Origin: Aurantiochytrium sp. KH105
Lineage: Eukaryota > Sar > Bigyra > Thraustochytrida > Thraustochytriidae
Direction of reading: 5' to 3'
NCBI GenBank assembly: GCA_003116975.1
Contig: BGKB01000054.1
Coordinates: forward strand, 186,001 to 250,000
DNA length: 64,000 bases
Positions 3,004 through 52,530 of this stretch are shown piece after piece. The notes beneath the pieces are model-generated. The model saw nothing but the letters and a program-made list of their open reading frames with translations, was not told the DNA's origin and did no database searches. Every line of letters starts with the position of its first letter. Position 1 is the stretch's first letter. A program made the translations under genes and the position numbers.

Positions 3004-6000
3004 ATGTTTGTTCGTAAAATCCTCCAAGCCAACGACCAGCAGGCCTCTTCGCGTGGCGACGAGGACGAGGAGGTGAAGGAGGACAAGAAGGAGGACGCGG
3101 ACGCAGCCAGCGAGAGCGAAACCAACAAGTCGGCCGCGCGATCTCATGGCAAAGAATTTGGAAGCGTCATGAAAAACGATGAGTCTCCAGCTGACGCGCA
3201 TCAGCCATTGGCGCCCGAGACGGCCGAGCACAAACATGGTGACAACCTAATTAGCATGAACGATGATGGTGGAAACAAGACCTCGTCACTGTCTGAAATC
3301 CTCGCTGTCGAATCTTCACATGGAGCCGGATCTGGAGAAAAGGTGGAAGCAAAAGATGGGTCGTACCCAACAATGGAACACGTGTCGGACGCAGGAGAAG
3401 CCAAAGTGTCACAGGATGTTGCTTCTTCTCAGAACAACAACCTGTCTCCGAGCGCTATCGATGATGCGACTGCTACAGAGCCTGTTAGTGCTGCAAATGA
3501 AACTCCCGTCGTCGATGATGCCAACGTTTCTACTTCCAAGGAAACTCCCATGGTCGATGATGTCAATGCTTCGGAGAAACCTCCCGTGAAGAACACTGCC
3601 TTAGAGAAAATCCCTGCAAATGCTACCCCACTGGATGAGACTGCTGCTGAGACTACTGCTTCTATCTCGGATAAAGGCCCTGCCGAAGCCAGTGCATCAG
3701 ATACAAACTCCGTGAATCTTGCTTCTTCTGATGTACCCCTTGCAGATGGTTCAACTTCTGTAGATGGTTCAATCCCTGCAGATCCAGAAGCTCCTACAGA
3801 TCCTGCAGCGTCTGTAGATGGTTCTGTTCCTGTAGATGGCTCAACTTCTGAAGATGGTCCAACTTCTGTAGATGGTTCAACTCCTGCAAATTCTGAAGCT
3901 CCTGCAAATTCTGAAGCTCCTGCAAATTCTGAAGCTCCTGCAAATTCTGAAGCTCCTGCAGATCCTGAAGCTCCTTCAGACCTTGAAGCTTCCGCAGACC
4001 TTGCAACTACTGCAAATGCAAAAGCTCCAACAGACGAAACAAGTCCTGGAGACGCTTCTGTCTCAAATGGCGCGGCTCATGAAAGTGGAGAACTCGCTGA
4101 CCAAGCTGCAGCTTCAGCAAGTCAAGCATCAGAAGATCCATCAGCAGGTGATCAACAAGCAGACGAAACGACGCGGGCAGCGACGGGCCAAGCTCACTCA
4201 TCGTCAGGAGTCGAGAATACCGAGGCTGCAAAGAAGGAGGCCACGGCAAGCGTCGACGGCGACGAGGGAGACGACAAGGTCTCAGAGAAAAGAAAGAAAC
4301 CACGGAGTCTCAGCAGCAATGCATCAGAACGATTTGAAGAGATTCAGCAGAAAATGACACCGAGCCAGCTGAAAAGGGCCACGAGCAGCAGGAAAGCAAG
4401 CTATGCCATCGTTGATGAAGATTCGGACGATGGCGAGGGCAGCAACCGCTCAATCGACGCCTACAGTGACGAGGAGGAGACTTTCATGGTCAGGAACCTT
4501 GACACGGGCGAGTACGAGCGCGTTACACTTTCTCAGATGATTAATGGTGGTGTGGTCAGCGGCATCAACGGGGGAAGCTTTGACGATGGCGAAGACGACT
4601 CGCAGTACGAGGAGGTGGAAAGCACTCGCGACGACGCGTCAACCGCGCCCAAGGGACGGCGCGGGCGGTTTTCGTCGCTTGCGAGCGAATCTGTGACGGG
4701 CGAAGAGTCTGAAGCCGAAATGCAGCTCAAATTGAGTTCATTACCTTCAATCAGCATGGATGGTCTGGGTGTTCCCGCGCCCAAGTCGGGTGAAGATGAA
4801 GACGACATGGATGAGATCGACACCGCGAATGCGCCCGCGCCGGAGACGCCCGCATCAGACGCACCTTCGTCGAATGCGGCACCACCACCCGAGGCCCCGC
4901 GCTTGTCGCCTTTGCATCGCGCGGGGGCGATGCTGGTTCGCTCGATCTTGGGACGTCGTCAGCGCAGTCGCCTCGTGCGTGCATTTGGAAAGTGGGACGC
5001 GCTTCAGCTTGTCGAGGTGGAGACGCAGCGGCTTGCAGAAGAGGTATCTTCCAAGTCAGAGGAGTGTGCCAAATTGAATGACGAGAATACTGCCCTTCGA
5101 GTGAAACGCGCTGGTGAGCCTGGTCCACAGTCCGAGCCAAACCTTCCGCAGCTAGTGCCCATTCGGTATGCCGAGGTACCGGCGACCATTCCAATTGCAC
5201 GGGAGTCTTTGGGGGCAAGTACAGAGGGCGCAAGTGGCGCGGGGGCTGGGATGCAAGGAATGCTGTCACGTGCACAGGTAGAGGCATTGCTTCGCGAAAA
5301 GGGCGTCGACCCAAGTTTGGTCTTTGGGGATGGAGCCCAGACAGCGAATCAGCAAGAGCAGGTCGTGGTCAAGCTCAAGGACGACCCACAGTACGGCAAG
5401 TTCTTCAAAATGTTGGCAGTGCGCGTCCCTCTGCAGGCAGTCAAGAACAAGGCAGAGGCAGAGGGTCTGGACCCTTCAATGCTCGACAAGGACCCAAATG
5501 ATCCTTCTTCGAACCAACCAAAACCTGCGGTGGCCGCAGAGGCGCCCGCTGCAGCGGCGGAGATTGCTCCGGTCAAGCTCAAGGATGATCCACAATATGG
5601 CAAGTTTTTCAAGATGCTTGCGGTTCGCGTGCCGCTGCAAGCAGTGAAAAACAAGGTCGAAGCGGAAGGTCTGGACCCAAATATGCTGGACAAGGATCCG
5701 AATGACCCATCGCCGAACCAACCGAAGCCCGCCACATCGGCTGCGGGCGAGACCGAGGGGGCAGTAACAGGAGAAGCAGCAGCTCCAGTGAAGCTTAAAG
5801 ACGATCCACAGTACGGCAAGTTTTTCAAGATGCTTGCGGTTCGTGTGCCGCTGCAAGCAGTGAAAAACAAGGTCGAAGCGGAAGGTTTGGACCCAAATAT
5901 GCTGGACAAGGACCCGAACGACCCATCGCCGAACCAGCCAGCTGCCAAGAAAGAGGAAGAGAAGGCTGCTGCTGTTGCGCTCAAGGATGACCCTCGGTAT

Positions 6001-8967
6001 GGCAAGTTTTTCAAGATGCTTGCGGTGCGCGTACCGCTGCAAGCGGTCAAGAACAAGGTCGAGGCAGAAGGTCTGGACCCAGCAATGATGGACAAGGATC
6101 CGAATGATCCCGCGCCCCCTATGCCCGGCGCGGAGAGCGAAAAGGGCGGTGGTGAAAAGGCTGCTGTCGCGCTCAAGGATGATCCTCGGTATGGCAAGTT
6201 TTTCAAGATGCTTGCTGTGCGCGTACCGCTGCAAGCAGTCAAGAACAAGGTTGAAGCGGAAGGCTTGGACCCGGCCATGATGGACAAGGATCCGAATGAC
6301 CCTGCGCCGCCTTTACCCGGGGCCGAGGGGGGAAAGAAAAAGAAGAAGGAGAAACCTACGGTGCCGCTCAAGGATGATCCGCGATACGGCAAGTTCTTCA
6401 AGATGCTTGCCGTGCGCGTGCCGCTGCAGGCGGTCAAGAACAAGGTCGAGGCAGAAGGTCTGGACCCGGCAATGATGGACAAGGACCCGAATGATCCGGC
6501 GCCGGCCGCAGCAGACGAAGATGACGAAGACGAAGACGATGAAGAGGAGGAAGCCGCGACGGTGGCGCTCAAGGATGATCCGCGATACGGCAAGTTTTTC
6601 AAGATGCTCGCCGTGCGCGTGCCGCTGCAGGCGGTCAAGAACAAGGTCGAGGCAGAAGGTCTGGACCCGGCAATGATGGACAAGGATCCGAATGATGCCG
6701 CGCCTCCCATCGAAGACAAGGACGGTGGCAAGAAGAAGTCCAAGAAGAAGAAGGCGAAAATGGTCAAAGTGAAGGATGATCCTCGTTACGCCCCGTTTCT
6801 GAAAATGCTGGCCGTCAAGGTGCCGCGTGGCGCTGTGGAAGTGAAGATGCGCGGCAAAGGTCTGGATCCGGCAATCTTGGACTTGGATCCGGAGTCGCTA
6901 ATCGAGGCTGAAGGCGAGGGGGATGGGTCTTTGAAGAAGAAGAAGGGCAGCAAGAAGAAGGCGAAGAAGGCGAAAGAAATGGTCAAGCTCAAGGACGACG
7001 AGCGCTACGCGCCATTCTTTAAAATGCTTGCCGTCAAGGTTCCGCGGGGTGCGGTGGAGGTAAAGATGCGTGGCAAGGGTCTAGACCCGGACATGCTGGA
7101 CAAGGACCCTGAAACAATGATTCCAGCAGCCGGCGCAGAAGGCGGCGACGAGGACAGTGACGATGACGATGAGGAAGACGGCGAGGGCGAGGTCAAGATG
7201 GTCAAGCTCAAGGACGATGAGCGTTATGCGCCATTTTTTAAGATGCTTGCCGTCAAGGTGCCGCGCGGAGCGGTGGAGGTGAAGATGCGCGGCAAGGGTC
7301 TGGATCCAGAGATGTTGGATAAGGACCCGGAGACGATGATTCCGGCCGCAGGGAGTGGCAGCGGGAAGAAGACGGCATCATCGAAGGCAGCGAAACCCAA
7401 GGCGAAGCCCAAGCCCAAGCCCGTGGAGAAGAAGCCGGACAAGATTGTGCGTCGCAAGTTGCATTGGCGCAAGGTGACAAAACATGCATTGGACAAGGCG
7501 GATGATCGAGCTCTTTGGACAAAGGCGTCAAAGTTTATGTTTGAGCAGCGCGAGGTGAAAGAGCTGAACGACTACTTTACGTTTAACATGTCGGAACAGG
7601 AACGGCGCAAGGAGCGAGAAAAGGCTGCCAAGGCGAAGGAAGAGGGCGCGAGCGGCGCGGGCGACGCGGGCAAGAAGAAGAAGGCGAAGAAGGAGGCAAA
7701 GAAGCAGGTGCTGGACCCGCAACGATCGAACAACATTTCCATTGTGCTTTCGCGCATGAAGGGTCATGGTATCGACAGCAAGGTCGTGCGACGGTGTTTG
7801 TACACGTTGGACGTGCCGGACAGCGTCTCGACGGAAGACGTGCGATCGCTTTTGGGTTTGCTGCCCACACCCGAGGAGGAGAAGACGCTCAAGGCATTTG
7901 AGGGCGAGCGGTCGGAGCTGGAGCGCGCCGAGGCGTACTTTTTGGACCTGATGGACATTCCGAGGTACAAGCAGCGTGTGAACTGCTTCTTGTACAAGCT
8001 CAAATTCAACGAGTCGTACGAGGAGGCGGAGATTGACTTTGAGGTGTTGGGCAAGGCGTGCAAGGAGATTTTGGAGAGCAAGAAGTTGCGTCGCATCTTT
8101 GAGATTGTCCTTGCGCTGGGCAATTTTTTGAACGAGGGAGAGTCGCCGCCGCCGGCACGGGTCGCCGAGGGGTTCATGTTGGACTCGCTCTCTAAGCTGC
8201 GGCAGGTGCGTAGTTTCCAGTCCAAGACCACGGCGCTGCACTACATGGTGATGCTCATCCAGACGCGGCAGGTGGAGCTGGTTTCGTACGTCAAATCGGA
8301 GACGGACAATGTGCGCGCGGCTTCGAACGTGTCGCTGACCAACGCGCTCGCGCAGCTGCAGGTGCTGGAGAATGGCATCAAGACGTTGGCGAACGAGGTC
8401 AAGTTTGTGGCGGGCGTTCTCGAGGATCCAGCGAAGCGGGAGGCCATGACGGAGGAGGACCAGGCCTTTGCGCTGGGCTTGAATCGCTTTTACAAGGAAG
8501 CGTCTTCTTCTCTTGAAGAGCTGCGCACCAATGCAAACGAGACGGAGGAGTCGTTCAAGTCGGTTGTGGACTACTTTTGTGAGGACGCGTCGACGACGTC
8601 GGAGACGCTTTTCCGCATGCTGCAGGGATTTTTTGCGGACTTTGAGCTTGCGCTTAATGAGAATGACGCGGCGCGTCAAAAGTATTTGCGCGTGAAGCGA
8701 CAAAAGGAGAAGATCGAGGCGCAGAAACAAAAGGACGAGGCGCAAAAACAAAAGGAAAAGCCAAAGGGCAAGGCTGCGGGTGCGGAGGGTCGAAAGGTAA
8801 AGGCCAAGCCAAAGGATGGCGAGGAGGGCCCCAAGTCCAAGGATGGGGATGGGGCCTCAGCGTCCAAGGCTGACGCTGACGCTAGCAAGCCTGTGGCTAA
8901 GAAGAAGGACGAGACGACCAAGATTGAGGAAGGTTCTTCTGGTAAGAAGGCGCCGTGGAGAGGCTGA
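3004..8967 (+). CDS. Formin (FH2) with ten WASH/CCDC53-like tandem repeats
   Basis: An intronless 1987-residue protein. The frame could begin at a GTG at 2995, but the first ATG is at 3004. Residues 1-~650 are acidic, Ser/Ala/Pro-rich and probably disordered, with an 18-bp tandem repeat (APANSE) at 3883-3980. Residues ~790-1450 contain ten repeats of the form KDDPxYxxFFKMLAVxVP, then VKxKxxxxGLDPxMLDKDP. This motif resembles the core of the WASH-complex subunit CCDC53. Repeats 1-7 are one subtype (VPLQAVKNK) and repeats 8-10 another (VPRGAVEVKM). Residues ~1478-1870 are the actin-nucleating FH2 domain, with RRKLHWRKV at its start and LALGNFLNEG in the core. A Lys/Glu-rich tail follows. No classical polyproline FH1 is visible; the repeat linkers are Pro/Asn/Asp-rich. 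The role is unbranched actin filament nucleation. The FH2 call is firm; the function of the repeats is unknown. Confidence 0.93.
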   Translation: MFVRKILQANDQQASSRGDEDEEVKEDKKEDADAASESETNKSAARSHGKEFGSVMKNDESPADAHQPLAPETAEHKHGDNLISMNDDGGNKTSSLSEILAVESSHGAGSGEKVEAKDGSYPTMEHVSDAGEAKVSQDVASSQNNNLSPSAIDDATATEPVSAANETPVVDDANVSTSKETPMVDDVNASEKPPVKNTALEKIPANATPLDETAAETTASISDKGPAEASASDTNSVNLASSDVPLADGSTSVDGSIPADPEAPTDPAASVDGSVPVDGSTSEDGPTSVDGSTPANSEAPANSEAPANSEAPANSEAPADPEAPSDLEASADLATTANAKAPTDETSPGDASVSNGAAHESGELADQAAASASQASEDPSAGDQQADETTRAATGQAHSSSGVENTEAAKKEATASVDGDEGDDKVSEKRKKPRSLSSNASERFEEIQQKMTPSQLKRATSSRKASYAIVDEDSDDGEGSNRSIDAYSDEEETFMVRNLDTGEYERVTLSQMINGGVVSGINGGSFDDGEDDSQYEEVESTRDDASTAPKGRRGRFSSLASESVTGEESEAEMQLKLSSLPSISMDGLGVPAPKSGEDEDDMDEIDTANAPAPETPASDAPSSNAAPPPEAPRLSPLHRAGAMLVRSILGRRQRSRLVRAFGKWDALQLVEVETQRLAEEVSSKSEECAKLNDENTALRVKRAGEPGPQSEPNLPQLVPIRYAEVPATIPIARESLGASTEGASGAGAGMQGMLSRAQVEALLREKGVDPSLVFGDGAQTANQQEQVVVKLKDDPQYGKFFKMLAVRVPLQAVKNKAEAEGLDPSMLDKDPNDPSSNQPKPAVAAEAPAAAAEIAPVKLKDDPQYGKFFKMLAVRVPLQAVKNKVEAEGLDPNMLDKDPNDPSPNQPKPATSAAGETEGAVTGEAAAPVKLKDDPQYGKFFKMLAVRVPLQAVKNKVEAEGLDPNMLDKDPNDPSPNQPAAKKEEEKAAAVALKDDPRYGKFFKMLAVRVPLQAVKNKVEAEGLDPAMMDKDPNDPAPPMPGAESEKGGGEKAAVALKDDPRYGKFFKMLAVRVPLQAVKNKVEAEGLDPAMMDKDPNDPAPPLPGAEGGKKKKKEKPTVPLKDDPRYGKFFKMLAVRVPLQAVKNKVEAEGLDPAMMDKDPNDPAPAAADEDDEDEDDEEEEAATVALKDDPRYGKFFKMLAVRVPLQAVKNKVEAEGLDPAMMDKDPNDAAPPIEDKDGGKKKSKKKKAKMVKVKDDPRYAPFLKMLAVKVPRGAVEVKMRGKGLDPAILDLDPESLIEAEGEGDGSLKKKKGSKKKAKKAKEMVKLKDDERYAPFFKMLAVKVPRGAVEVKMRGKGLDPDMLDKDPETMIPAAGAEGGDEDSDDDDEEDGEGEVKMVKLKDDERYAPFFKMLAVKVPRGAVEVKMRGKGLDPEMLDKDPETMIPAAGSGSGKKTASSKAAKPKAKPKPKPVEKKPDKIVRRKLHWRKVTKHALDKADDRALWTKASKFMFEQREVKELNDYFTFNMSEQERRKEREKAAKAKEEGASGAGDAGKKKKAKKEAKKQVLDPQRSNNISIVLSRMKGHGIDSKVVRRCLYTLDVPDSVSTEDVRSLLGLLPTPEEEKTLKAFEGERSELERAEAYFLDLMDIPRYKQRVNCFLYKLKFNESYEEAEIDFEVLGKACKEILESKKLRRIFEIVLALGNFLNEGESPPPARVAEGFMLDSLSKLRQVRSFQSKTTALHYMVMLIQTRQVELVSYVKSETDNVRAASNVSLTNALAQLQVLENGIKTLANEVKFVAGVLEDPAKREAMTEEDQAFALGLNRFYKEASSSLEELRTNANETEESFKSVVDYFCEDASTTSETLFRMLQGFFADFELALNENDAARQKYLRVKRQKEKIEAQKQKDEAQKQKEKPKGKAAGAEGRKVKAKPKDGEEGPKSKDGDGASASKADADASKPVAKKKDETTKIEEGSSGKKAPWRG
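5368..7350 (+). repeat. Ten in-frame CCDC53-like repeats inside the formin
   Basis: Repeat cores begin near 5368, 5575, 5791, 5977, 6166, 6364, 6562, 6766, 6985 and 7201. Spacing is about 190-220 bp. DNA identity between neighbours is high, mostly third-position changes, which suggests tandem duplication with partial homogenisation. Linkers vary: acidic, lysine-rich or Pro-rich. Confidence 0.9.
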
Positions 8968-20202: not shown

Positions 20203-23200
20203 TTACTTGCTAAAGTTGCGCGCACCTGCGGGGTACAGCTCGACGAGTTTCGCGCGCTCCTCTGCAGCATCGTACGGAAAAATTTCAGCCAGGATGCGAA
20301 ATGCCAGCTCATCAAGGTGTTTGAGGTCATCGTCTGCGAGGCTCACATACACCATCTCCGCGAGATCCGGCGCCCATCGGTCGTTTACAGAGTCCGTCAT
20401 GTGGACGCAGATCACCGTGTCGCTTCCCACGCTCGTCTTCTTGTGCTTAAAAATGTGACTGTACTCCAGCTTGCAGTAGTTCCGCTTTGCGTGAGTCCGA
20501 ATCTTGTCCATGTAGCTCGGGGAGAGGCACACCAAAACGACGTGGGACTCATTGATGCCATCAGCCATCCACAGTGACATGTCGGACCCTTGCAGATCCT
20601 CTGTGTCGAACCAGCACCTCAGCTTAAACTCCCCCTCGAGACTCTCTTTAACATCTTCAACTCGCATGTGGTTGAAGAACCCGCTGTCGTTGGAGTCCAC
20701 CATCCAACTGTGCGACAAAAAGACATCGTAGGCCGTGCGAAGCCGCGTCTCCAATTTCGCTACGGCTTCCACCATCCTACGCGCATCCTTCGGCGATGGG
20801 CGGTCATTCCGCGAGAGCTTCAAGAGTTCATCCAGCGTCGTCGCCAGCCCTGCGTCAACATCATGCAGCCCGAAAAGGTCCGCAATCTCGAATTCGTAGG
20901 CAGCTGACGAGGTGCATCCGAAGAGCCTGAGCATGCCCAGCAAGTACCGAAGGGCTTCCTTGACCATTTGGCTTGCAGTCTTCTCCGTTGTATTCAGCAT
21001 CAGCCTAAGTGCTGCCCGCGCCTGGTACTTAAAAGCCCACAGACCATCGGTTCCCATCTCGGCCGGGTCCACGAGCATCAGCAAAGACGCAAGAGGCGCG
21101 ATCTGTGATCGTGGAACCATAACGGTCTCATCATCCCCCGGTCCTCGAGAAAGAATTCGAAGCGGAACATATGCATTCTCCACGACCGCGTTGACTCTGC
21201 GAAGTCGCACTTGCAGCTGCGCATCATCGCTCTCGCGAGCGCTCAAATATTGATCCACCTTGTCTAGATCTTCACGTCTTATCCCAAATGCACCGTCGTG
21301 GTTGAGGAACAGCTGGGTGGTGGACCACCGCAGCGTATGAAGAAGCTCGTCTATACGCCGCAGAACAACGCTAAAGCTGTCGAAAAGACTACGGCGGTGC
21401 GATCTTAATGACCAGGCCCTCACCTCAATACGTCCACGACCGTTGGGGTTGCGCGCCTCAGCGAGTCGAAAGTATACGACTGCTGGCTGGCTTGTGCTCT
21501 CGGAGATGGTACCCTCGAACTTCGACTCATCAAACGTCTTGAAATGGATCAGGCGATAGCAACGCGCCACGAGACGGAGAAAGAGACCCTCGGGCAGGAA
21601 GGTGTTGAACTCGCAGTGCCAGTGTAGGACAAGCGAGTCTGGACCCGGGCCGCGAGACAGACTGGAGCGACCCAGCGACGCGCGTCTAGAGAGCCTGTCC
21701 AGATGCCTCGATAGACTTCTCGCCAACGTCGGCCGCTTGTACACGCGCGGGAAGTCTTTGCGCAGAAGCAGCGGGATCATGAACTCGCGCTCCTCAACGT
21801 TCCGGTCTGTGCGCGGTGGTAGCTCGAACATTAGATCCAGCTCCATGAAGACGTCGAGGTACATGGATCGATCCTCGGGAGTCAGCTGGGCCCAGGTTTG
21901 CGACCTGGTACCCTGGAGCGAGCCGCACGCTGTGTCGTGGATAATGGGAAGGTAGCCGAGGAGGAATTCCGACAGCACACAGTCCTGCTCGAGACGCGTT
22001 CGGTCCGCATTGAGCTTTGTGAGCTTGGCATTCCTACCCCGCCCCTCCGGTTTTGGTAGCTTATATATCGCGCCCTTGTCGCGAGTCTCGGGGTTCTTGA
22101 AGAGGTCGTGGCGGTAAATAGACCGCATCACCTCGATGAGCCATGCAGGATCCGTGAAAACGTTGCGCGACAGCGCTGGGTTCTCTCCGTACCACAGCAC
22201 GTGCCCAAGGTCGTGCAGCAGCTTGAGAGCAAGATCCAGCTTTTCAGGATCTTTCGCGAGGCTCGCGCCTTCTCCGTCGCTCACTCCCAACCTCTCCTGT
22301 ACCTCGGACAGGTCCCGGACTGTGATACACATAGCTGCCAGCGTACGAGTGACAGGCACCTCATACGAGAACAGCGTGTCGCGAAGCGCCATGCACGACT
22401 TGGGCACACGTAAAGCAATGCCCAGCGCTGGGTCGCATGCGAGGTCTTGCAGCGTGGCGTAGAGCTGCGGAACCCCGTCGAACTGCTGTGTGTTCTTGTT
22501 GCTTAGGACGAAGGCGCGCTGCGGCACAAATTTTATATCACCCGACCGGCCCAGACTTGCCACGAGCGCCTCGACACGAGTCATGATGGCCTCCATGACA
22601 GCATCCGGCCTGGCGTTCTCAGGCACCTCGTCTGCTTTGGTGCCAACGACAACCAAGCGCAGGCGCGACGCTTGGACCGCGAGCGCGCGAATCCACCGTC
22701 CCGCCGTCCGATCGAAGTACGCGTCGGAGTCCTCGTAGGCGCCAAGGTCCATCACCAGCATGACGAGACTGCGGCTCGAGATAAAGAGGGAGTGGGTCAT
22801 GTAGTACTCCTGCTGGCCACCGAAATCCCAGAGCGAGATCTTGCCAGTAAATCCATCTTCTCTGGCGTCGAACTCGAGCTGGCGAATGTCCACACTGATC
22901 GTGGCGCGCTCGTTGCCCTCCCCGGTCAGCTTCGCCTTTCTGCCTTCTTCCAGGGTAAGTGCGTTCGCCAGGCTCGTCTTGCCCACGGCCTGCGGTCCCA
23001 CCATGAGCACTTTGAGCTCTGAGATTGCGCTTACACCTTTCACGAGTTCGTCCAGGTACAGGCGCAACTTATCAGCACCTTGGACCAGGATCTCCTCAGG
23101 AATGTCGACAACAGGATGCACGCCGGCCTCCCTGCAAGCGAGGCTGTACTCCTTCGCGATGTGGCAACGCTCGTCGTTCAATCTGAGTCGCGCATCATCA

Positions 23201-26200
23201 AACCGAAGAATTGCGAGTGCTACCATGGCCTCAATAGGGTTGCCGGAAAAACTTTGTTTCGAACCGATTGTGATGCGTTAGCAGGATAAAACTTCGTCAA
23301 ACGCCTAGAAAGAAAGACGGACTTACTTAAGCTCCTGCAGCGACTTGCTCTGCGCCATCGCGCTGGCCAGCGCCTTGGCGCCATCTGAGCCGATACTGTT
23401 GCTCCCAAGACTGCTCATTCCAGTGCGAGTAAGGGCCAGGGCAAGCATTCGGGGGCAGAGACGGCCGTGCCGTGGGCGACGTGGTGTCGCAGGAACGTTA
23501 GTCCTCATTGCTCTTTGCTGTCGATCCGGCGTCATCATGACTTACTCCAGCGTCTGCAGCGACTTGCTCTGCGCTACCGCGTCAGCCAGCGCCTTGGCGC
23601 CCTCGTCGCCGATGCTGTTGCCCCCAAGACTGCTCATTCAAGTGCGTGCGAGGGCCAGGGCACGCATGCAGAGGCCAGAGACGGCCATGCCGTGGGCAAT
23701 GCGGTGTCGCGAGGAGTTAGTCTTCGTCGTTCCTTGCTGTCGATCCGTCGTCATCATGACTTACTTCAGCGTCTGCAGCGACTTGCTCTGCGCCACCGCG
23801 TCGGCCAGCGCCTTGGCGCCCTCGTCGCCGATACTGTTGTTCTTAAGACTGCTCATTCAAGTGCGTGCGAGGGCCAGGGCAAGCATGCAGAGGCCAGAGA
23901 CGGCCATGCCTCGGACGATGTGGTGTCGCGGAGGAGTTAGTCCTCATTGCTCTTTGCTGTCGATCCGGCGTCATCATGACTTACTTCAGCGTCTGCAGCG
24001 ACTTGCTCTGCGCCGCCGCGTCGGCCAGCGCCTTGGCGCCCTCGTCGCCGATGCTGTTGAAAGAAGAGCTGGAAATCGTGTCGCTCCCAAGACTGTCCGT
24101 TTGAGTGCGTGAGTGCCAGAGCACGCATGCAGAGGCCAGAGACGGCCATGCCGTGGGCAATGCGGTGTCGCGAGGAATTAGTCTTCGTCGCTCTTTGCCG
24201 TCGATCCGTCACCATCATGACTTACTTCAGCGTCTGCAGCGACTTGCTCTGCGCCACCGCGTCGGCCAGCGCCTTGGCGCCCTCGTTGCCGATGCTGTTG
24301 CCCCCAAGACTGCTCATTCAAGTGCGTGCGAGGGCCAGGGCACGCATGCAGAGGTCAGAGACGGCCATACCGTGGGCGATGTGATGTCGCGGGGGCGTTA
24401 GTCCTCGTCGCTCTTTGCCGTCGATCCATCGTCATCATGACTTACTCCAGTTTCTGCAGCGACTTGCTCTGCGCCGCCGCGTCGGCCAGCGCCTTGGCGC
24501 CCTCGTCGCCGATGCTGCTGAAAGAAGAGCCGAACAACCCGTCGCTCCCAAGACTTACGTTTGAGTGCATGTGAGGGGCAGGGCAAGCATGCAGAGGCCA
24601 GAGACGGCCATGCCGTGGGCAATGTGGTGTCGCGGGGGCGTTAGTCCTCGTCGCTCTTTGCCGTCGATCCGTAATGACTTACTTCAGCGTCTGCAGCGAC
24701 TTGCTCTGTGCCACCGCGTCAGCCAGCGCCTTGGCGCCCTCGTCGCCGATGCTGTTGTTCCGAAGACTGCTCATTCGAGTGCGTGTGAGGGCCAGGGCAC
24801 GCATGCAGAGGTCAGAGACGGCCATGCCGTGGGCGATGTGGTGTCGCGGGGGCGTCAGTCCTCTTCGCTCTTTGCCGTCGATCCGTCATCATCATGACTT
24901 ACTTCAGCGTCTGCAGCGACTTGCTCTGCGCCGCCGCGTCGGCCAGTGCCTTGGCGCCCTCGTCGCCGATGCTGTTGAAGGAAACACTGAGTATCGTGTC
25001 GCCCCCAAGACTGTCCGTTTGAGTGCGTGAGTGCCAGAGCACGCATGCAGAGGCCAGAGACGGCCATGTCGTGGGCGATGTGGTGTTGCGGGGGCGTTAG
25101 TCCTCTTCGCTCTTTGCCGTCGATCCGTCGTCATCATGACTTACTTCAGCGTCTGCAGCGACTTGCTCTGCGCCACCGCGTCGGCCAGCGCCTTGGCGCC
25201 CTCGTCGCCGATGCTGTTGCCCCAAAGACTGCTCATTCAAGTGCGTGTGAGGGCCAGGGCAAGCATGCAGAGGCCAGAGACGGCCATGCAGTGGGCGATG
25301 TGGTGTTGCGGGGGAGTTAGTCCTTGTCAGTCTTTGCCGTCGATCCGTCGCCATCATGACTTACTCCAGCGTCTGCAGCGACTTGCTCTGCGCCACCGCG
25401 TCGGCCAGCGCCTTGGCGCCCTCGTCGCCGATGCGGCTGTCCCCAAGACTGCTTATTCAAGTGCGTGTGAGGGCCAGGGCACGCATGCAGAGGTCAGAGA
25501 CGGCCATACCGTGGGCGATGTGATGTCGCGGGGGCGTTAGTCCTCGTCGCTCTTTGCCGTCGATCCGTCGTCATCATGACTTACTTGAGCGTCTGCAGCG
25601 ACATGCTCTGCGCCACCGCGTCGGCCAGCGCCTTGGCGCCCTCGTCGCCGATGCTGCTGAAAGAAGAGCCGAACAACCCGTCGCTCCCAAGACTTACGTT
25701 TGAGTGCATGTGAGGGGCAGGGCAAGCATGCAGAGGCCAGAGACGGCCATGCCGTGGGCAATGTGGTGTCGCGGGGGCGTTAGTCCTCGTCGCTCTTTGC
25801 CGTCGATCCGTAATGACTTACTCCAGTGTCTGCAGCGACTTGTTCTGCGCCACCGCGTCGGCGAGTGCCTTGGCGCCCTTCGAGCCGATGCTGTTGTCCC
25901 GAAGACTGCTCATTCGAGTGCGTGTCAGGGTCAGGGACCAAAGACGGCCCCATACCATGAACGATGCGGTGTCGCGGGGGCGTTAGTCCTCGTCGGTCTT
26001 TGCCGTCGATCCGTCATCATCATGACTTACTTCAACGTCTGCAGCGACTTGCTCTGCGCCACCGCGTCGGCCAGCGCCTTGGCGCCCTCGTCGCCGATGC
26101 TGTTGCCCCAAAGACTGCTCATTTAAGTGCATGTAAGGGCCAGGGCACGCATGCAGAGGCCAGAGACGGCCATACGGTGGACAATGCAGTGTCGCGGGCG

Positions 26201-49116: not shown

Positions 49117-52100
49117 ATGAGCGCGGCGGGCGGCGAGGAGGAGGAGAACATCGCGCTCCGGCTGCTGCGCAGGTGCACGGCGTGGCGCGAGGAGGATGGC
49201 GAGGACGACGCCGCGGCCGACGAGGAGACGCCGACCATGAGGCGCGCACGAGACGCGCAAAGACGCTCCGGCGCGCACGTGCAGGCGCAGAGGCTGCAGG
49301 AGGACGGGGACGAGGACGACGAGGAGGAGGAGGAGGACTCCTTTCAGGAGGAAGGGGCGGAAAACGACGCCGAGCAAGACGGAGCGCCCCGGCGTGCGGC
49401 GAGGGGCTCGGGCGTGAAGCGGCCCTCGCAGGCTGGATCGTACTTTGCCGCGACCCTCTCGAGCCTCTTCGGACCGTGGATCCCCGGCGGCGAGGAGCAA
49501 CGCGAAAGCGGCGAGGGGAATGACGCAGAGGACGACGCTGCAAACCTTGCGTCCGAGGCCGACGAAGACGACGAAGACGACGAAGACGACGAAGAGCATG
49601 ATAGTGGCGACTCAGATCGGTCCTTTTACACGCGTGACGGGAGCACACGCGGCACCATCGTCGCGCAGGCGCCCATGAAGCGCAGACAAAGCAAGCTTAC
49701 AACTAGTGTCTGGCCCAAAACGGCCGAGACCAAGCGCGATCGCGACCGCATTGAAAAGTACTGCGAGGACCTCAAGGCCTTTGCGGACGACGTCAAAGAG
49801 CACCAGTTCACCAAGCAGGCCGATCTCGCGACGTGGATGCTCGGCATCGTCGCCGTATCGGACGAAGCGCTCGACAGCCGCCTGGAAGGCAAGCAAGCCC
49901 TGACGGCCGTGCTTCGCGAAGCAATGAACAACGCGCGTCCCAGCAACGATGAGCACCTGCGATTCATCGTCGCAGCAAGCATGCTTGTTGTTCGTCTCGA
50001 TGCTGGTTCAGAAGGCTCCATCATGATAGATCAAGTCCGTGAAATCCTCAGCAAACTTGTATCAACCTTTCAAGCGACCATCAAGGCAAAACAGGATGGA
50101 AACCGTTCGCCCTTTCGCCCCGCAGCCAGCGGTGTCGTCGCCTCGGCATTGGCCTACATTTTGTCACGCGCCTCCGATGCGCGCTCCATGCGCGATGAGG
50201 TTATTCTTCCTAGCGGATTCGTCTCGGACCTCATTGGCTTTATCGAAAGCCTCGACGTCACAGACGACGAGACGCGCGGAACCCTCTTTTCGCCCTGTGT
50301 GCACGTTGCCGATTTCATTTGCTGTGTTCGTCCGTTTCTGGATTTCGATGTAAGCAAGGGATTCGTCCAGCCGCTGGCATCCAAACTCAAGGCGCTTCAC
50401 GAACTCGAGGACCGGCGGACGCCCGAGCTCGACGAGGAGGACATTGCATTTTGTAACGATTTTCACCAGCGCGCTCTCGGCATGGCAAGTCCCGTTGCCG
50501 AGGCCAGCCCATCGTCGACTCGCGCACTCGGACACGCCATGGCCATTCTCGCAAATCTCTGTGACGGCTCGGATCACCAAATTGCCTTTGTTGTCAAGAA
50601 CAGCCAAATTCTCGCTGAAGCCTCCGCGCTGCTCAAGCACCCAAACCTGCGTATCTACATGTCTTCACTACGTTTGCTTGGTAACGTGGTGACGGGCCCC
50701 GATGACCTGACCCAGACCGTCATTGATATTGGCGCCGTCCCCTCCATTCTCGAATTTGTCACCAAGGCCCCGTCTGCAGTCCATGGCGACGAAGGCATCC
50801 CTCTGTACAAGGAGTCGCTCTGGCTCTTATCCAACATTCTCGCTGGCAATGAGGAACAGATCAACTACATTCTCGACCTCGACGCCATGAAATACATTAT
50901 CGAGGTGCTCACGTCCGACCAAGTCTTTGCGCCTCTCAAGTCGGAAGCGCTTTGGTGCGTGCGCAATGCGCTCGCGGGCGGCACACCCGAGCACGTCCAA
51001 AAGTGTATCGACGCCGATTGCATTGAGGCCTTTGTCCCTGTGATCGCCGCCCGTGGGAACATCGCGCAAGATTCCATTCTCTGCGCCGAGGGTATTGCGG
51101 AAATTTTTCGCACGCTACGCGAGCATGCACAAAGCAGCGAGGATGAGGCCGCCCAGTCCGCGTACGAGGACGCCAAGACGCGTCTCCGCGAGAGCCATGG
51201 TGTTGAGGTGCTCGACCAGAGCGCTTGTGGAAGCGAGGTGAGCGCTTCTGTTACGCAGCTGGCTCAGGAGATCCTTCGCCAGCACTTTGAGATGAACAAT
51301 GATAATTGGGTCAATCTCGAGCAGCGGAGCCAGATGTTTAACTTTGGCGGCTACTCGCTGAGCGATAGTTTCCAGAGCCTTGGCGAGGCCGTGACCTTTT
51401 GGCGCGACAAGGCGAACGAGGGCGTCGACGAGGAGAGCGAAGACTACTTTGACGAGCTTCTTGTCGACCCATACGTGTCTGCAGACAATGTTCGAGGTGT
51501 CCTCGTCTTTCTCTCCAAGTTGCGGATCTCCCAAGAGTTCCAAAACACGAGCATGCAGACCGGACTCGCGCGTCGCGTCATGGACGGCCTTGAAACGCTG
51601 TGCTCCGACGAGTTTGCGCGGGAGGAAATTATTGCCCGCATGGTCGACTCTGTCGACACGTGTGGCGACAAGCCCATCTGGGCGCTCAACCAAATCTCGC
51701 TCGTCAGCCGCGTCGCGCATGCCCGCGGCAACAAGGAGGAGCTTCGCAAGGTTGGCCGTGGTGTCATGAACCTCGACATTGTGCATGAGCACGTGCGCCG
51801 CGTGATCGACAAGTTCGTCAAGCGCAATGGTGGTGTGGACGATGTCTGCGTGTACCTGCGCTTCGAAATTGAATTGCGCGAGGACCTCGACCTCCCTGTC
51901 TCCGCGCAGGACATGATCTACTCCACCTATGTGCAGATCGATAAAGCAGACCTCGAGGCAGCACGCACTGCCTGCAACGAAGTTGACGATGAGGCCTTTG
52001 AGGTATGGCTCTCTGCCTGGCCAGAATGGATCCGCGAGGAGCGCCGCGAGTTTGCTGATGAAACGGACTGGGCCGAGCTTGATCAAGAAGAGCTTTCGCG

Positions 52101-52530
52101 CAATAGCCTGCGCGACAGCCTCACGAACCTATTTGGAGACCCGGTGGAAGATCCGATTCGCCTTCTCGATCCGGACCATCCCGGCAAGAGACCCGTGTGG
52201 AGTCTCAAGGATCTGCTCCGGCATTGGGTCGCCACGGGCATGGATCTCCACGGCGTGCACCGCTCAACGGATGATTTGCGCAGTAATTTGCGGCGATGCA
52301 CACGCCGCAAATCCATTCGGAGCATGCTTTCCTTCAAGTCCGCAAAGTCTGTCTCGCCCTTTAAGCGCCATTCTAGCCGCAGCAACATTCTCGGCGAAGA
52401 GGAGGGCGAGGATCAGGGCGCGCTCGGGCTTGGCGAGCTCGACGAAATCGACGAGCGTGACCAAATTGTATCGGGAAACGGCAATGAGGACGACGATGCC
52501 GCCCGCCGCGCAGATGCCGTGGAGAGTTGA
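49117..52530 (+). CDS. Importin-alpha-like ARM repeats fused to a NEL E3 ubiquitin ligase domain
   Basis: An intronless 1137-residue protein from the ATG at 49117; upstream in-frame sequence is Arg-rich GC-driven leader. Residues 1-160 are acidic and low complexity. Residues ~200-660 are helical ARM-type repeats resembling the importin-alpha fold (LRLLGNVVTGPDDLTQ, ESLWLLSNILAGNEEQI, EALWCVRNALAGGTPEH). Residues ~735-985 match the NEL fold of bacterial IpaH/SspH effector ligases: YFDELL, a helix pair, then the catalytic motif TCGDK with Cys849 and Asp851 (CxD), NQISLVSRVAHARG, ELREDLDLPVS near 917-927, and MIYSTYVQIDKADLEAA near 933-949. A basic Ser-rich tail (RRKSIRSMLSFKSAKS) follows. In bacterial NELs the Cys forms a thioester with ubiquitin, and LRRs bind substrate; here ARM repeats take the substrate-binding position. 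The NEL call rests on the CxD motif plus surrounding pattern. Activity is inferred. Confidence 0.8.
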   Translation: MSAAGGEEEENIALRLLRRCTAWREEDGEDDAAADEETPTMRRARDAQRRSGAHVQAQRLQEDGDEDDEEEEEDSFQEEGAENDAEQDGAPRRAARGSGVKRPSQAGSYFAATLSSLFGPWIPGGEEQRESGEGNDAEDDAANLASEADEDDEDDEDDEEHDSGDSDRSFYTRDGSTRGTIVAQAPMKRRQSKLTTSVWPKTAETKRDRDRIEKYCEDLKAFADDVKEHQFTKQADLATWMLGIVAVSDEALDSRLEGKQALTAVLREAMNNARPSNDEHLRFIVAASMLVVRLDAGSEGSIMIDQVREILSKLVSTFQATIKAKQDGNRSPFRPAASGVVASALAYILSRASDARSMRDEVILPSGFVSDLIGFIESLDVTDDETRGTLFSPCVHVADFICCVRPFLDFDVSKGFVQPLASKLKALHELEDRRTPELDEEDIAFCNDFHQRALGMASPVAEASPSSTRALGHAMAILANLCDGSDHQIAFVVKNSQILAEASALLKHPNLRIYMSSLRLLGNVVTGPDDLTQTVIDIGAVPSILEFVTKAPSAVHGDEGIPLYKESLWLLSNILAGNEEQINYILDLDAMKYIIEVLTSDQVFAPLKSEALWCVRNALAGGTPEHVQKCIDADCIEAFVPVIAARGNIAQDSILCAEGIAEIFRTLREHAQSSEDEAAQSAYEDAKTRLRESHGVEVLDQSACGSEVSASVTQLAQEILRQHFEMNNDNWVNLEQRSQMFNFGGYSLSDSFQSLGEAVTFWRDKANEGVDEESEDYFDELLVDPYVSADNVRGVLVFLSKLRISQEFQNTSMQTGLARRVMDGLETLCSDEFAREEIIARMVDSVDTCGDKPIWALNQISLVSRVAHARGNKEELRKVGRGVMNLDIVHEHVRRVIDKFVKRNGGVDDVCVYLRFEIELREDLDLPVSAQDMIYSTYVQIDKADLEAARTACNEVDDEAFEVWLSAWPEWIREERREFADETDWAELDQEELSRNSLRDSLTNLFGDPVEDPIRLLDPDHPGKRPVWSLKDLLRHWVATGMDLHGVHRSTDDLRSNLRRCTRRKSIRSMLSFKSAKSVSPFKRHSSRSNILGEEEGEDQGALGLGELDEIDERDQIVSGNGNEDDDAARRADAVES

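Follow-up and report, generated by a model that had tools for sequence, protein, structure and literature searches.

A NEL-type ubiquitin ligase domain predicted behind an importin-alpha armadillo solenoid in the thraustochytrid Aurantiochytrium sp. KH105

So far, the NEL domain is known almost exclusively from proteins injected by bacteria into their hosts, such as the IpaH, SspH, SlrP and NopM effectors with their leucine-rich repeats (LRRs), and NEL ubiquitin ligases (E3s) count as a bacterial family, with no structural homologues among eukaryotic E3s (PMC12506513, PMC9320238; these and the papers given below by PMC number are cited from excerpts). Behind the NEL core, the bacterial proteins have a helical thumb that binds ubiquitin-loaded ubiquitin-conjugating enzyme (E2-ubiquitin), at residues 623-697 in SspH1 (PMC12506513). 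Among eukaryotes, an LRR-bearing domain of green-algal NLRs has been called homologous to NEL, a claim similar to the one made here, but no CxD catalytic core is described in the excerpt (PMC7145615), and a Giardia inventory has PF14496, the Pfam NEL model, in its Pfam list, filed under RING ligases (PMC7029713). No report of a eukaryotic NEL family was found in the titles, abstracts and excerpts of the open papers searched; PF14496 may already contain eukaryotic sequences that have drawn no comment. Here we describe a gene of the single-celled eukaryote Aurantiochytrium sp. KH105, found in a stretch of 64,000 nt (the window; contig BGKB01000054.1, positions 186,001 to 250,000), whose product carries a NEL domain behind an importin-alpha armadillo (ARM) solenoid and belongs to a family of NEL proteins encoded in the same genome.

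Profile and pairwise searches confirmed this domain order for the open reading frame (ORF) at 49117-52530, in agreement with a first-pass annotation made from the sequence alone, the overall interpretation of which is supported. The protein scores 96.9 bits with PF14496 (cut-off 24, E 1.5e-27) at amino acids (aa) 791-980, covering profile positions 25-221 of 223; the only other Pfam matches at E<=10 were Arm, below its own cut-off (13.7 against 20.6 bits), and a sub-threshold Ubiq_cyt_C_chap. The NCBIfam models for IpaH and SlrP also match the NEL region, at about E 2e-9 and far under the equivalog cut-offs, which is normal for a distant relative. When aa 729-1018 were compared with PDB sequences by phmmer, 12 of the 13 matches at E<=10 were NEL E3s (best 4.1e-11), the thirteenth being mL85 at E 0.24. 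In the alignment, the window sequence 'DTCGDKPIWALNQ' lies over 'STCEDRVTHALHQ' of SspH1, and Cys849-Gly-Asp851 falls on the catalytic CxD, so that the residues named beforehand as catalytic coincide with the known cysteine and the CxD aspartate of NELs in the PDB. The third acidic residue is Asp908, the first Asp of a VDDV motif, which by hand count on the phmmer alignment falls on Asp397 of IpaH9.8, an acidic residue near the active site of that protein (PMC11354881). A profile built from 16 paralogues of the genome returned only NEL chains from the PDB at E<=0.001 (12 of 12, best E 2.7e-28), and in a profile-profile comparison with nine bacterial NELs (E 3.9e-21, probability 99.4) cysteine lay over cysteine and the VDDV Asp over the Asp of the bacterial PDEV. 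On these comparisons the protein has a NEL domain. Its description as a complete NEL held in part: judged by profile coverage, little of the catalytic core is missing, but a thumb of the bacterial kind that binds E2-ubiquitin was not recognised behind it, another conserved domain standing in that place. The features of the gene, all on the forward strand, are as follows.

49117..52530, forward: importin-alpha/NEL fusion coding sequence, one unbroken, intronless ORF of 1137 codons.
49117..49728, forward: acidic, low-complexity N-terminus in the translation, aa 1-204; Pfam found no importin-beta-binding (IBB) domain.
49729..50481, forward: presumed N-terminal half of the solenoid, aa 205-455, not confidently alignable to importin-alpha; the W..N motifs of the major site are absent.
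50527..51363, forward: importin-alpha ARM 5-10 and an acidic 'F-x-FGG' tail, aa 471-749, from BLASTP to the genome's own importin-alpha (L043) and PDB importin-alpha matches; the repeat numbers follow what we take to be the usual convention.
50821..50835, forward: minor-site motif of ARM7 for the nuclear localisation signal (NLS), W569-N573, equivalent to W357/S360/N361, from alignment with importin-alpha and published residue lists (PMC10999750, PMC3858281).
50953..50967, forward: minor-site motif of ARM8, W613-N617, with E610 (equivalent to E396) just before it, from alignment with importin-alpha.
51487..52056, forward: NEL catalytic core, aa 791-980 (PF14496, E 1.5e-27).
51661..51663, forward: predicted catalytic cysteine of CxD, Cys849, present in 16/16 aligned members and aligned with the SspH1/IpaH cysteine.
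51667..51669, forward: Asp851 of CxD, present in 16/16 aligned members.
51838..51840, forward: Asp908, hand-counted counterpart of IpaH9.8 Asp397; Asp in 15/16 members, Glu in L016.
52087..52302, forward: conserved C-terminal domain at the place of the bacterial thumb, aa 991-1062, from alignments and hhalign; weak U-box-like profile signal.

The importin-like nature of the ARM repeats was borne out by matches to importin-alpha and designed ARM chains in the PDB (importin alpha-7, whole-sequence E 2.6e-27) and by BLASTP against the IBB-bearing importin-alpha of the genome itself, L043 (28% over 283 columns, E 5e-24). The L043 match spans the acidic tail as far as 'FGG' at about aa 743-745, directly before the NEL part that is shared by the family. 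Residues V321, T328, E354, W357, S360, N361 and E396 line the minor NLS site (PMC10999750, PMC3858281). At the minor-site positions checked (aa 525, 532, 566, 569, 572, 573, 610, 613 and 617) the window protein is identical to both importin-alphas of the genome in nine of nine cases. Two of the nine, those of W399 and N403, were our own addition, on the assumption that the repeat pattern holds. None of the seven major-site positions checked, which we take to include W142 and W231, is kept, two being replaced and five falling into gaps, where the alignment is poor. The protein has no W...N motif besides the two of the minor site, with none before aa 569, and Pfam (E<=10) found no IBB domain in it, while finding one in both of the genome's importin-alphas that were scanned. 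Because the minor site (ARM6-8) is kept, the major site is not recognised and no IBB was found, this part is read from its residues as a piece of importin-alpha with half the signal-reading groove, and not as an import receptor. The protein shares ARM 5-10, the minor-site residues and the FGG tail with importin-alpha, but it is not one: the IBB and the major site were looked for and not found, and a NEL is attached.

The fusion is real but it is not isolated, as the first-pass annotation had seemed to imply. A PF14496 profile search of the assembly (76.0 Mb, 367 contigs, place counts being lower bounds) gave at least 32 places, all above the cut-off, and an isolated chance fusion was rejected on this count. 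By score and position, the 32 places are read as 16 genes, each in two near-copies; eight of the 16 pairs were aligned copy to copy (one copy being partial in three of these, and both in a fourth, C94/C82), and the other eight were inferred from near-equal match scores. The aligned NEL pairs have amino-acid identities of 0.955-0.980, a ratio of nonsynonymous to synonymous divergence (dN/dS) of 0.11-0.28 and synonymous divergence (dS) of 5-11%. Near-copies were seen for most genes examined (NEL, importin-alpha, five of six U-box genes, two of three phytoene/squalene synthase genes) and, given the dS of the NEL pairs, the assembly is a two-haplotype or hybrid one. The paralogues are 30-47% identical to the window NEL, and with one copy taken per pair, Cys849 and Asp851 are invariant in all 16 aligned NELs, while the Asp908 position is Asp in 15 and Glu in L016. 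Cys849 is conserved both in the second genomic copy of the window gene and in the 15 other paralogues aligned. L016 (4383-6092) is the shortest paralogue, at 570 aa; its CxDK motif reads CGDM, its third Asp is a Glu, and its activity is perhaps altered.

A 21-residue LRR profile found repeats before the NEL in 14 of the 15 other genes (E <2e-5), four of the proteins it scored having also seeded it; none of 16 shuffled sequences scored below 0.1. The fifteenth, L010, reached 0.017 with this profile but matched Pfam LRR_1 at 4.6e-6. LRRs therefore precede the NEL in all 15, LRR-NEL being the usual plan of the family, and neither the LRR profile nor Pfam gave an LRR match in the window protein, which reads as the member whose reader is an ARM solenoid instead. 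L010 (919-5769) and L019 (164-5464) have a three-part plan of SPRY, LRR and NEL. Two neighbouring paralogues on contig C31, L009 and L025, lie about 4.7 kb apart in divergent orientation, an arrangement repeated on C93, and NEL genes are found a few kb from contig starts at C4:1150, C55:1168 and C201:4683, perhaps a subtelomeric location.

The second copy of the window gene (C201:2328-5726) has 97% amino-acid identity to the first and a dN/dS of 0.28, and its surroundings (L012, 1226-9900) match the window in three collinear blocks (93.3-94.4%). When the copies are compared, amino-acid changes are fewest in the NEL (2 of 235) and at aa 986-1066, which takes in the C-terminal domain (0 of 81), and this domain is clearly constrained; nine of 198 aligned residues differ in the N-terminus. 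Among six segments, aa 1-204 have the highest dN/dS (0.58), compared with 0.15 for aa 205-455.

Several known systems resemble parts of this protein. With the IpaH, SspH, SlrP and NopM effectors it has in common the NEL core, the CxD, the third acidic residue and a reader placed before the core, but the window gene is eukaryotic and chromosomal, has importin-alpha ARM repeats in place of LRRs, lacks a recognisable thumb and stands in no setting of type III secretion, nor would a secretion signal be expected on a eukaryotic chromosome. The search for an LRR reader having been negative, the protein does not belong to the LRR-NEL effector family. Plant U-box/ARM (PUB-ARM) proteins and ARM-bearing HECT ligases likewise join an ARM reader to an E3 catalytic unit, but the window protein has a NEL core with a predicted catalytic cysteine, rather than a U-box alone or a HECT domain, and its ARM repeats are of importin-alpha type. 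RBR ligases combine a RING-type E2 dock with a separate catalytic cysteine, a likeness that holds only if the C-terminal domain is U-box-like, and their catalytic core is unrelated.

At the place of the bacterial thumb, the 16 protist proteins have a different conserved stretch, weakest in L014, with the consensus 'DLxGxxxxDPVxLxxxxxxWSLxDLLxHWVxTGxDFxN'. Pfam and PDB profile searches with it returned only weak matches to unrelated families. A resemblance to U-boxes was spotted by eye before testing; hhalign against six U-boxes of the same genome gave a score of 25.3 (probability 54%), with DPV on DPV and HW on the U-box W, compared with 18.5 for the best of 200 column shuffles and 7.4 for the reversed profile. 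We treat a U-box-like domain as a lead and not a finding. That the stretch is instead a strongly diverged NEL thumb has a real chance of being correct, though something short of an even one: it occupies the same position in the chain with a similar length (about 75 aa, as in the SspH1 thumb, 623-697), and the U-box signal is weak, but hhalign with the C-terminal ends of ten bacterial NELs gave no match (score 8.8, probability 0.1), while the NEL cores of nine of these proteins do match, at probability 99.4. The bacterial C-termini also differ from one another.

From the residues, domain order, conservation and family described above, we infer a chemistry, an E2 dock and a class of targets, and with moderate confidence we favour a native, cysteine-type (thioester-forming) E3 of the protist that would recruit proteins with NLSs of the KR type. 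The ARM groove would capture proteins carrying such minor-site signals, either as cargo of nuclear import or as free NLS proteins. A ubiquitin-loaded E2 would dock on the C-terminal domain, the best candidate for this task and perhaps a degenerate U-box, and ubiquitin would pass, by analogy with bacterial NELs, from the E2 to a thioester on Cys849 and then to a lysine of the captured protein. The whole family may be a reader-swapping E3 set with LRR, SPRY plus LRR and ARM readers, as plant F-box and U-box families are.

A number of results weigh against this reading. The AlphaFold model of aa 735-1085, made with eight Pseudomonas NELs, is helical but of low confidence (mean pLDDT 41.6), as is that of aa 959-1075 alone (mean pLDDT 50.2), and a Foldseek search with the former gave no match at E<=0.001, nor did the best 50 of 125 matches include a NEL chain; such models neither support nor refute a NEL fold, and the assignment stands on sequence comparison. 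The predicted ligase activity has the same basis. The U-box resemblance also fades with other inputs: the longer alignment A5 scored 26.6 with a probability of 26%, and the addition of three plant U-boxes lowered the result to 21.1 (21%; best of 500 shuffles 18.0), with two unrelated profiles, A3 and A8, reaching 12.9 and 14.9 in the U-box comparison. The Pfam U-box model matched the C-terminal domain in none of the 16 members at E<=10, and no U-box was seen in an hmmsearch of its profile against the PDB. In the ARM part, the first half aligns poorly, so that the main ground for a lost major site is the lack of further W...N motifs, and the minor-site segment has a dN/dS of 0.37 between the copies, compared with 0.15 for the other ARM half.

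A broader proposal can be put forward tentatively, and we place it on the unlikely side: NEL could be a native eukaryotic E3 class that follows an RBR-like plan in this protist lineage. The E2 would dock on a U-box-like domain, ubiquitin would be taken up by the NEL cysteine, and target choice would fall to swappable readers (LRR, SPRY-LRR or importin-alpha groove), with NLS-bearing proteins marked by the window member. Bacterial NEL effectors might then be borrowed or lent parts, rather than a purely bacterial invention. 

Apart from that proposal, a conserved set of some 16 protist genes would bring a class of cysteine E3s into a eukaryotic cell and reopen the question of where the bacterial effectors came from. 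It would also provide natural reader swaps on one catalytic core, one of them seemingly reading nuclear localisation signals. Gene knockout has been described in Aurantiochytrium limacinum (PMC10016063), so genetic tools exist for thraustochytrids.

The ARM part may alternatively be a localisation or regulation module that binds export or transport factors (CAS-like) and places the NEL ligase at the nuclear envelope, with substrates chosen elsewhere. The C-terminal end of importin-alpha, by which it binds its exporter, is kept up to the FGG tail, the IBB was not found, and the minor-site segment has the higher dN/dS of the two ARM halves, all of which this explanation would accommodate. It fits less well with the retention of all nine minor-site positions checked, or with the LRRs that precede the NEL in the other 15 members, much like the substrate-recognising LRRs of bacterial NELs (PMC12506513), and we regard it as rather improbable beside a ligase that recruits through its ARM groove.

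In the NEL tree, the 16 protist sequences lie on one side of a single branch, with support of 100/99 and recovery in 100% of 200 bootstrap trees. This unrooted tree has long branches and a small bacterial sample, its 12 bacterial rows being ten from Pseudomonas and two from rhizobia; L029 and L037 are the same gene, leaving 11 distinct bacterial rows, and L038 is a long row. By this tree the protist set has one origin, and no direction of transfer is given. NEL is scattered in bacteria, with 9 of 398 Pseudomonadota genomes positive, including the centre genome, which was known beforehand to have one. The PF14496 profile had no match in 14 control genomes, and of three pattern matches to NEL relatives in viral contigs none was confirmed. 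An origin of NEL in protists, from which bacteria acquired it, agrees with the unrooted tree and with an old protist radiation (30-47% identity to the window NEL) set against that scattered bacterial presence. We nevertheless think it distinctly unlikely, since the search covered one eukaryotic genome only, and the occurrence of NEL in a single eukaryote and in several groups of bacteria has a simpler explanation in transfer from a bacterium to a protist. In seven of the eight Pseudomonas cases, a very long ORF (at least 1562-1652 aa) carries the NEL near its end, and six of these ORFs extend beyond the locus. L029:2-4795 (with like ORFs in L030, L031 and L033-L036), the one that was scanned, has a dermonecrotic-toxin N-terminal domain and LRRs.

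That the NEL core is an inactive relic, kept as a scaffold, would agree with the unrecognisable thumb and with an activity that is so far predicted, but is very improbable given that the cysteine and aspartate are invariant in 16 of 16 members, that the third acidic residue is Asp in 15 and Glu in one, and that only two of 235 NEL residues changed between the copies.

Of ten other ORFs scanned in the window, six have eukaryotic-type domains (formin, Roc-COR-TIR, Myb, WD40, papain and Torus/WW/RRM), which indicates a eukaryotic chromosome; one has a sub-cut-off match only and three have no match. The G+C content at third codon positions (GC3) of the window gene is 0.707, within the 0.607-0.811 of the seven other window ORFs measured, so the base composition is neighbour-like, as was first noted. 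Bacterial contamination or a recent insertion, which might be thought of because NEL is known chiefly from bacteria, is refuted for practical purposes by the eukaryotic-type neighbours on both sides, the importin-alpha fusion, the 32 places on many contigs, the GC3 and the two collinear copies.

Among the neighbouring genes, the ORF at 20206-23226 on the reverse strand encodes a Roc-COR GTPase with a C-terminal TIR domain, possibly an immune or NADase-type protein. The ORF at 3004-8964 on the forward strand encodes a formin (FH2) with ten additional stretches that match the model of the WASH subunit CCDC53, probably due to composition. Elsewhere in the genome, a 1318 aa ORF (L056:1-3516, contig C268) has amine-oxidase-type and phytoene-synthase domains in the 1172 aa scanned, with no third Pfam domain at E<=1e-5 after the synthase in that portion. 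By its domains the ORF fits a crtIBY-like fusion, an arrangement reported only from thraustochytrids and Thecamonas according to the excerpt of PMC10016063.

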